A stretch of DNA of 64,000 nucleotides. Source: Candidatus Aminicenantes bacterium (GTDB lineage Bacteria; Acidobacteriota; Aminicenantia; Aminicenantales; UBA4085). Shown here piece by piece: positions 35,830 through 57,733 of the stretch. The stretch lies in contig JAPKZJ010000020.1 in the NCBI GenBank assembly GCA_026393855.1, forward strand, positions 1-64,000. The letters run 5' to 3'. Position 1 is the first letter of the stretch, and each line of letters begins with the position of its first letter. The notes under the pieces were generated by a model, which saw only the letters and a list, made by a program, of their open reading frames with translations, searched no databases and was not told where the DNA came from. The translations under genes were made by a program, and so were the position numbers.

Positions 35830-35924
35830 GGGTGTGTCCTTAGTCGCGATCATAGCACAAAGCCGCCGGCCGAAGAAAAAGGGATCATCTCCCATCTCCG
35901 GGAAACGCGGTTCGGAGTATCGTC

Positions 35925-36167
35925 CCGGCGGCGCGGGTTCACCACTCCTTTTTACGCCAATCCGCTCGGCGCCTCGGAACTCCGCATTCGAGATCTCCCG
36001 GTTTTAGTGACCACCCACTCCGTTTCGATTCCGCTAGATGGTCGCGTGCTCAAACAGCCCTCGGCGGCCGTTGGCTGCCCTCGCGGAGAGGCGTAAAAAG
36101 CCGGAACCCGCGCGGTTTCGCCGTTGGCCGACACCCCGAACCGCTGATGTTTCCTGGAGATGGGAGA
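35925..36167. repeat. Intergenic repeat of ~240 bp, copy A
   Basis: This segment matches 55939-56190 in the same orientation and order. Shared blocks include GGCGGCGCGGGTT, GGAACTCCGCAT, CCCACTCCGT, TCGCGTGCTCAAACA, CCCGCGCGGTTTCGCCGTTG and GGAGATGGGAG. The blocks are joined by diverged spacers with small indels. In this copy the minus-strand reading frame is broken (TAG after LFEHATI). It fills most of the 437-bp gap between the DUF4404 and DUF1801 genes. The rest of the gap holds a TATAAT (36196-36201) without a clear -35, probably the -10 of the next gene. Confidence 0.65.
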
Positions 36168-36266
36168 AGAACCAGAAAAAATCCCCGCCTCGTCATATAA
36201 TATCCGCGAGGACTCCCAGATAACAGGGAGCCGGCCCGACAACCCGGCGGCCAGCGGAGAAGCGCC

Positions 36267-36662
36267 ATGAAACAATCCCCTGCGAAAGCGAAACCCAAGC
36301 GCGGCGGCCCGGCCAAAAGCGTCGACGCCTATCTGGCGGCCGTCCCGGCGAAGGAGCGGGCCGTCCTGCAAAAGCTGCGCGCGACCATCAAATCTGCGGC
36401 ACCCAAGGCCGAGGAGATGATCAGCTATGGAATCCCTTCTTTCAAACACCAAGGATACTTGGCGGGTTTCGCGGCGTTCATGGCCCACCTCAGCTTTTTT
36501 CCCGGCGCCACCGTCAAAGCCTTTAAGGAAGAGCTGAAAGACTACGACACCGCGACGGGGACGGTCCACTTCACGGCCGCCAAGCCGCTTCCGGCGGCCC
36601 TGGTCAGGAAGATCATCAAGGCCCGGATCAAAGAGAACGAGGCGCGAGCGGCCAAACCTTGA
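36267..36662 (+). CDS. DUF1801 family (YdhG-like) protein
   Basis: Protein of 131 aa. A basic N-terminal tail (KAKPKRGGPAK) precedes the DUF1801 domain at ~17-125 (VDAYLAAVPAKERAVLQKLR, APKAEEMISYGIPSF, HLSFFPGATVKAFKEEL, LVRKIIKARIKENE). YGIPSF and the short-chain helix pattern are typical of the family, which includes YdhG and shows weak kinship to iron chaperones. The real role is unknown. The 3' end overlaps the convergent GH120 gene by 35 bp. A TATAAT lies 65 bp upstream. Confidence 0.88.
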   Translation: MKQSPAKAKPKRGGPAKSVDAYLAAVPAKERAVLQKLRATIKSAAPKAEEMISYGIPSFKHQGYLAGFAAFMAHLSFFPGATVKAFKEELKDYDTATGTVHFTAAKPLPAALVRKIIKARIKENEARAAKP

Positions 36663-55880: not shown

Positions 55881-55938
55881 GCCCCGCGCCGTTTTTTGGA
55901 TTCATCTACATCTCCGGGGCCTGCGTCACGATGATCGG

Positions 55939-56190
55939 ACCGGCGGCGCGGGTTTTTCACGCCTTTTTTGCGCTTCTCTTCTCGGCGCCTGCGGAACTCC
56001 GCATGTTTGACCTCTCTGATCTGCATGATCACCCACTCCGTATCGTTCCCAATGATCGTCGCGTGCTCAAACATCCCTCGGCGCCCGTTGGGTGCCCTCG
56101 AAGAGGTTCGCAAAAAAGTCTAAACCCGCGCGGTTTCGCCGTTGTCCGATCACCGTGCCGCCTGACCATCCCCCGGAGATGGGAGTTGAC
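55939..56190. repeat. Intergenic repeat of ~240 bp, copy B
   Basis: The partner of 35925-36167, with the same block order and orientation. In this copy the minus strand has an open frame from ATG 56074, preceded by GAGGG, reading MFEHATIIGNDTEWVIMQIR and then a basic stretch (RRRREEKRKK). It may once have coded a ~50-residue peptide, or the frame may be chance. It fills most of the 362-bp gap before the threonine synthase promoter. Confidence 0.65.
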
Positions 56191-56194
56191 TCTT

Positions 56195-56242: not shown

Positions 56243-57733
56243 ATGCGCTATATCGGAACCCACGCCAATCACCCCTTCGCCTCCGCCTCCGAGGCCGTCC
56301 TGCTGGGCATGGTGCCGCGGGGCGGGCTGTTCGTGCCGGAGACGATCCCCGCCCTCGACGCGGACACGCTGGCCCAGACGTCCTATCTCGAGACGGCCCG
56401 CCGCATCATGGCGCCGTATTTCTCCGACTTCACGCCTGCCATCCTAGACGCCTGCCTGCGCAAGGCCTACAACGAGACGACCTTCGACGTCCCCGACGTG
56501 GTCGATCTGCGCCCGCTCGGCCGGCGGCGCTTTCTGCTCGACCTCTGGCACGGCCCGACGGCCGCCTTCAAGGACGTAGCACTCCAGCTCATGCCCCAGC
56601 TTACGGCCACGGCCAAAACGCTGACCGGCGACAAGACCCACACTCTCATCCTGGTCGCCACCTCGGGCGATACCGGCAAGGCCGCCCTGGAGGGCTACAA
56701 GAACGCCGAGGGCATCTCGATCGTCGTCTTCTATCCCCACGGCGGGGTCAGCGAGGTCCAGCGCCTGCAGATGGCCACGACCGACGGCAACAACACCAAG
56801 GTCTTCGCTGTCCGCGGCAATTTCGACGACTGCCAGACCGGCGTCAAGGCGCTGTTCATGGACTCGGCCCTGCGCGACTACCTGGCCGGCAACAGCATCA
56901 AGCTGTCGACCGGGAACTCGATCAACTGGGGCCGGCTGGCTCCCCAGATCGTTTATTACGTCCGGGCTTACGCCCTGCTCCAAGCGCGCGGCGAGATCCG
57001 GCCCGGCGAGGAAGTCGACATCTGTGTCCCAACCGGCAACTTCGGCAACATCCTGGCCGCCTGGTATGCGCGGGCCATGGGCCTTCCGGTCCGGCGGCTC
57101 TTTTGCGCTTCGAACAAGAACAACATCCTGACCGATTTCTTTCAGACCGGCGTCTACGACACCCACCGCGAGTTCCACCGGACCTCTTCGCCCTCGATGG
57201 ACATCCTGATCTCGTCCAACCTGGAGCGCTTCCTGTTCGAGCTGACCGGCCGCAACGCCGAGAAGATCAAGACCTGGTTCACCGAGCGCTTCCGCAAGGG
57301 GGTCTTCGAAGTGGACGCCGAAACCAAGACGGCCATGGACGCGTTGGTCGTGCCGGGCTGGGCGGACGAAGCCCGGGTTTTTGCCGAAATCAAGAAAGTC
57401 TATGAGGAAACGGGGCGGATCATCGACACGCATACCGCGGTGGCCTCGGCTGTATCGCGGGACAGGGGGGCGGCCGACGGGCCGGCCGTGATCATCGCCT
57501 CCACCGCCAGCGCCTTCAAGTTCGGAAGCGACGTCCTGGCCGCCATCACCGGCAAGGCCGAGCCCGACGAATTCGCGGCCATCGAGCGGCTGAGTGAAAT
57601 CGCCGGCGAGCCGCCGCACCGGGCGGTGCGCGGCCTCAAGGAACGGCCCGTCCTGCACGACAAGGTCCTGACCATCTCGCAGATGCGCGAGGCCGTCATC
57701 GGCTTCGCCGACGGCTTGAGCGGCCGGGCCTGA
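56243..57733 (+). CDS. thrC: Threonine synthase
   Basis: Protein of 496 aa, length of the longer (class I, E. coli/yeast-like) threonine synthases. The N-terminal domain has YIGTHANHPFASASEAVLLG. The PLP lysine is K110 in HGPTAAFKDVALQ. Family motifs are LVATSGDTGKAALEGYKN, GGVSEVQRLQMATTDGNN, STGNSINWGRLAPQIVYYV, VPTGNFGNILAAWYARAMG and SSNLERFLFELTGRN. It converts O-phosphohomoserine to threonine. The next gene, 16 bp on, is a PGM-like protein that may supply the phosphohomoserine. Upstream is a TTGACT/TAGAAT promoter. Confidence 0.95.
   Translation: MRYIGTHANHPFASASEAVLLGMVPRGGLFVPETIPALDADTLAQTSYLETARRIMAPYFSDFTPAILDACLRKAYNETTFDVPDVVDLRPLGRRRFLLDLWHGPTAAFKDVALQLMPQLTATAKTLTGDKTHTLILVATSGDTGKAALEGYKNAEGISIVVFYPHGGVSEVQRLQMATTDGNNTKVFAVRGNFDDCQTGVKALFMDSALRDYLAGNSIKLSTGNSINWGRLAPQIVYYVRAYALLQARGEIRPGEEVDICVPTGNFGNILAAWYARAMGLPVRRLFCASNKNNILTDFFQTGVYDTHREFHRTSSPSMDILISSNLERFLFELTGRNAEKIKTWFTERFRKGVFEVDAETKTAMDALVVPGWADEARVFAEIKKVYEETGRIIDTHTAVASAVSRDRGAADGPAVIIASTASAFKFGSDVLAAITGKAEPDEFAAIERLSEIAGEPPHRAVRGLKERPVLHDKVLTISQMREAVIGFADGLSGRA

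Follow-up and report, generated by a model that had tools for sequence, protein, structure and literature searches.

A MITE family with ISL3-type ends and a conserved hairpin interior in a Candidatus Aminicenantes genome

What is the intergenic repeat of which two diverged copies lie about 20 kb apart in the genome of a Candidatus Aminicenantes bacterium? The window, a stretch of 64,000 nucleotides, is part of contig C20 (JAPKZJ010000020.1) of a 3.68 Mb genome that is 95% complete. A preliminary description placed the copies at 35925-36167 (copy A) and 55939-56190 (copy B) and suggested a structured RNA, a MITE-like element or a decayed small gene. The repeat is real: copies A and B align with 76% identity over ~250 bp (E = 1.5e-39), far beyond chance. 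We hold with considerable confidence that both are members of a MITE family of about a hundred copies with ISL3-type ends, the interior of which would be a structural cassette selected for its folded form.

The two copies and their family

Copy A is a complete ISL3-type MITE of 292 bp (35882..36173), assigned to subfamily A from terminal inverted repeat (TIR) matches and alignments, and oriented on the minus strand, the better-folding strand and the one that bears TGTTTGAGC. The left TIR, GGATCATCTCCCATCTCCGGGAA (35882..35904, plus strand), includes a match to the 21-mer of the TIR at 35882-35902, and its outer 14 nt are those of the ISL3 element in locus L253. The right TIR (36151..36173, minus strand) matches the 21-mer at 36153-36173. 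The unit is flanked by the target-site duplications AGAAAAAG (35874..35881) and AGAAAAAA (36174..36181), which are identical at 7 of 8 positions and are identified on the basis of the family-wide 8-bp test described below. The hairpin core (35947..36101, minus strand) corresponds to positions 1-155 of R1, our covariance model of the core (170.6 bits, E 5.8e-40). Copy B is a complete, older unit of ~295 bp (approximately 55898..56192, minus strand) that belongs to subfamily D; its duplication is no longer clear, and its core lies at 55963..56118 on the minus strand (162.3 bits, E 7.3e-38). With both TIRs included, the units are thus longer than the intervals first proposed.

Each copy lies upstream of a plus-strand gene, as had been noted (DUF1801 at 36267 for copy A, threonine synthase at 56243 for copy B). 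This is not a rule, however: copy A is flanked by two divergently oriented genes, and the strands of neighbouring open reading frames show a mixed arrangement among 60 copies of the family. Threonine synthase is preceded by an element of the copy B subfamily both in this genome (G000) and in the related genome G002 (L049), so copy B is probably older than the split between the two.

The repeat is not limited to two copies. We identified ~40 scored copies in the genome by blastn, and R1, built on 28 copies, gave 106 matches at E <= 0.001, spread over many contigs, only two of them in the contig of the window. The 50 complete units and the shorter derivatives range from 54 to 535 bp, mostly 290-301 bp. 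The family is short, multicopy, dispersed and without a transposase gene, as is required of MITEs. Close matches to the core outside this genome come from records titled Acidobacteriota, and further relatives were found in the order (see below). Neither further copies nor covariation had been named as the outcome that would point to chance retention of an old duplication; we found both copies and covariation.

Two other repeats are nested in copies of the MITE. A REP-like palindrome of ~52 bp (CCTCGTAGGGACGTCGCTTCGACAGTCCCCGCGAGG) occurs in L007, L008, L009, L011, L031, L093, L097 and L100, at several different positions of the hairpin and with as many as three occurrences in a single copy (L093). 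A second repeat of ~105 bp (CATGCAGCCGAAGGCGC ... GCGCCTTCGG) is nested in L036, L057, L094, L095, L096 and L101, and looks like another small mobile element.

Ends, insertion sites and the likely mobiliser

The units end in terminal inverted repeats (GGWTCWTCTCCCATCTCCGGG...). With 3 mismatches allowed, the 21-mer GGTTCTTCTCCCATCTCCGGG has 66 matches in the genome and its reversed control 0. Across 50 units, the 8 bp to the left and right are identical at a mean of 4.38 of 8 positions, compared with 2.94 +/- 0.22 when the right flanks are shuffled (6.5 SD above shuffled, with 0 of 2000 shuffles as high as observed), and the signal peaks at a duplication length of 8. Duplications are exact in 4 of the 50 units and identical at 7 of 8 positions in 10, and have decayed in many copies. 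The 8-bp flanks are 83% A+T, versus 41% farther out. Derivatives of 54, 119, 122 and 127 bp have kept their ends and lost the interior. Given the inverted-repeat ends and the A/T-rich duplications with a fixed length of 8 bp, the sequence makes a solid case that the element is a MITE, a non-autonomous transposon, as the preliminary description had considered.

Species of the genus differ in which sites are occupied. The copy at L027 is absent from G002, judging by spacing (conserved flanks 185 bp apart, versus 491 bp). The intergenic DNA has diverged too far for the exact empty site to be aligned base by base. The DUF4404 gene that adjoins copy A is without an upstream element in G001, and in G002 has an upstream unit with its own TTTTATTT duplication (L052/L255, G002:C103). 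Copy A and this G002 unit, upstream of the same gene in two species of the genus, belong to different subfamilies and have separate 8-bp duplications, which suggests that they were inserted independently close to a single promoter region.

The ISL3 transposase (PF01610) was not found by Pfam search in this genome, at 95% assembly completeness, or in G002; it has matches in 28 of 79 genomes of the order. Where ISL3 ends in the order could be read together with a duplication, they start with GG.TC and are flanked by 8-bp duplications (agtttaat, ttttaatt, attattta, gaaaaagg). ISL3 elements of ~1.35 kb in G041 and in G005, the latter from the same taxonomic family as the genome of the window, have the ends GGATCATCTCCCATTTAG and GGATCATCTCCCGATTAG and encode a PF01610 transposase; copy A begins GGATCATCTCCCAT. 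The outer 14-16 bp of the MITE and of these elements from family and order relatives agree, and past this point the ends differ. On the strength of this common outer end, ISL3 is the likely source of the MITE ends. As PF01610 was not found in this genome or G002, the mobiliser has to be deduced from relatives; it was likely an ISL3 transposase acting in trans. We predict that such a transposase bound the ends and moved units into A/T-rich intergenic sites, and that its gene has since been lost from this genome or is missing from the assembly.

Compared with known systems, the MITE shares with ISL3 insertion sequences (DDE_Tnp_ISL3, PF01610) of the order the outer repeat GGATCATCTCCC(G/A)AT and the A/T-rich 8-bp duplications. 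It differs from them in size (~290 bp versus ~1.35 kb), in the lack of a transposase gene, in its end past ~16 bp, and in having a conserved hairpin as its interior. In the QMITE2 elements of Coxiella burnetii, duplications of 7-9 bp flank TIRs of 23-29 bp that enclose a core, and the predicted fold is very stable; MITEs tend to insert into A/T-rich intergenic regions (PMC10969869). The acidobacterial element resembles QMITE2-like bacterial MITEs in its duplications, TIRs, core and stable fold, but has a core that evolved in a compensatory manner among subfamilies and is found again in other genera, between different ends. The kind of element is already known; it is the conserved, exchangeable interior that is distinctive.

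A folded interior

The fold predicted for the whole element from 36 complete units is a single long hairpin that bears a small side stem and ends in a branched tip. At its 97 pairs, standard pairs occupy 90.4% of cells versus 39-46% with the partner slid, a control that overstates the difference because the structure was predicted from the same alignment. Two-sided changes, the count of which is the safer measure, occur at 40 of the 97 pairs versus 27.5 +/- 2.5 in shuffles, a test that is inflated by relatedness, and the covariation score is 0.222 versus 0.126. The tip includes a stretch of bases (TGTTTGAGCA) that are mostly unpaired and do not vary among copies that differ elsewhere. A conserved structure in the interior is well supported by these comparisons, and the conserved interior is the unusual part of the element.

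Of the structured RNA proposed earlier, the structure is borne out by this strong covariation. The consensus energy is lower on the minus strand. The comparison of G.U with A.C changes is suggestive with a structure predicted from one strand, but when only pairs predicted on both strands are counted it gives 30 against 19 events (p = 0.15), which singles out neither strand and does not tell RNA from single-stranded DNA. Rfam 15 has no match to the window region up to E = 10, and related loci have none that reaches a gathering score.

The core is found inside other ends. In G035, from another family of the order, the same core occurs in a 375-bp unit with the ends GGTTCATCACGTTTTTGAGTACC, and one copy has a perfect 8-bp duplication (AATTTTTT); an ISL3 element in G021 has an end (GGTTCATCATACTAATGAGTACCT) similar to that of the G035 unit. 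R1 identified multi-copy relatives in G013, G042, G015, G025 and G028, and none in the 291 remaining genomes sampled from the phylum. In G013, G042 and G025, which were read in detail, the ordered internal-loop modules (GAAGCGAC, GGTTTAGCC, TGTYTGAGC, GCGAGTTCC or GCGGAGTTCC, and GGCGTTAAAAACC) are common and the stems differ. Compensatory stem changes across subfamilies, together with the same core in a MITE of another family with other ISL3-type ends, are consistent with a structural cassette that is under selection for its folded form and carried as cargo. Such a cargo would act most likely as a transcribed hairpin RNA, and less likely as single-stranded DNA for the transposition or replication machinery.

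The way stops and indels are distributed across copies leads us to reject the decayed small gene (MFEHATIIGNDTEWV...), which we find barely credible. Its minus-strand frame is open in copy B and broken in copy A, as first reported, and in subfamily D it stays open for ~50 codons, with several copies reading alike (FEHVMIIGNETEW...). However, subfamilies A and B include many copies that stop at the same codon, directly past FEHATI, the subfamilies differ by single-base indels that shift the frame near the same place, the variable positions track the stems, and no Pfam family matches the frame. Very improbable, too, is a family of free-standing structured RNA genes that multiplied through recombination instead of being a transposon. 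Strong covariation and the conservation of internal loops and tip across the order would suit such genes, but TIRs with 8-bp A/T-rich duplications, ends that match ISL3 and deletion derivatives that retain these ends contradict them. Families besides ISL3 also produce 8-bp duplications, and a DDE transposase of one of these (e.g., of the IS1595 or IS256 types) may have moved the MITE, in agreement with the lack of an ISL3 gene in this genome, where the transposase search covered PF01610. We consider this improbable, given that 14-16 bp of the ends match those of ISL3 elements in the same taxonomic family and order and that the variant ends in G035 resemble another ISL3 end (L071).

It is conceivable, although we lean against it, that the element is an ordinary ISL3 MITE with a functionless interior, in which the arms are only extended inverted repeats that owe their complementarity to intrastrand template switching or to a recent spread from a few master copies. 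The complementarity of the arms could result from copying between them instead of from selection on the fold. Subfamilies share blocks of changes, as from master copies, derivatives without the core exist, the strand comparison gives p = 0.15, and MITEs often fold into stable stem-loops (PMC10969869). A functionless interior accounts poorly for unpaired tip and loop bases that are invariant in copies differing elsewhere, and for the fact that the same core recurs in other genera with stems that differ, and between other ends.

Similar hairpins in other phyla

The tip of the core resembles a motif, TGTYTGAGCGNAGCGAGTT, that caps long hairpins in Pseudomonadota, Bacteroidota, Fusobacteriota and Bacillota. 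The motif is present in 87 stretches of viral contigs, on plasmids of Variovorax, Ilyobacter and Parabacteroides (and of Butyrivibrio, with one difference), and in two other Acidobacteriota. In many of these places the motif sits at the top of a long hairpin: all 8 flanking positions are paired, with a one-base offset, in 11 of 86 occurrences versus 0 of 2000 mismatched pairings. About a third of the 86 are hardly paired at all, and these probably match by chance or within coding sequence. The hairpins of other phyla were not detected by R1 and have no family match in Rfam, and a scan of viral contigs for GNGCCGAGGGNTGTTTGAGC gave no match. Because R1 misses these hairpins, the tie to the core draws on motif and architecture, and we treat it as a lead rather than as proof of homology.

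Long intergenic hairpins at L162-L177 and L263-L266, from several phyla, have the tip TGTYTGAGCGNAGCGAGTT in common and differ in their stems. Many such hairpins are followed by a pseudoknot-like stretch (e.g., CCTTGATTTTTGGTTACTTTTCATCAAGGAAAAGTAAC). At L264, L265 and L266 (G133, G174) the upper hairpin GACGCACGCGCGTGCTGTYTGAGCGAAGCGAGTTCACGCGCGAAGGAG is common, and the lower stems differ, each being almost fully complementary.

Skipping-rope RNA (RF02924) is a long bacterial hairpin and was tested on account of these hairpins. It has a pseudoknot (Rfam 14 paper). None of 20 genomes and records scored above its gathering threshold, and the viral and plasmid records that bear the hairpins gave no match at all to RF02924.

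A more speculative proposal, which we think rather unlikely as it stands, is that the core is a member of an undescribed and very widespread class of bacterial hairpins with the tip TGTYTGAGC-(GNA or longer loop)-GCGAGTT, in which stems vary from copy to copy yet always pair, and a pseudoknot-like stretch commonly follows. Capture of one member between ISL3 ends in this order would then have led to about a hundred copies. Searches on the motif string and on MITEs in Acidobacteria found no description in the literature covered, from which most subscription journals are absent.

The repeat is thus explained as one of about a hundred ISL3-type MITEs in an acidobacterial genome. That their conserved, covarying interior is carried between different transposon ends suggests a structural cassette with an independent function. 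If tied to the similar hairpins of other phyla, it would point to an overlooked class of bacterial structured elements.
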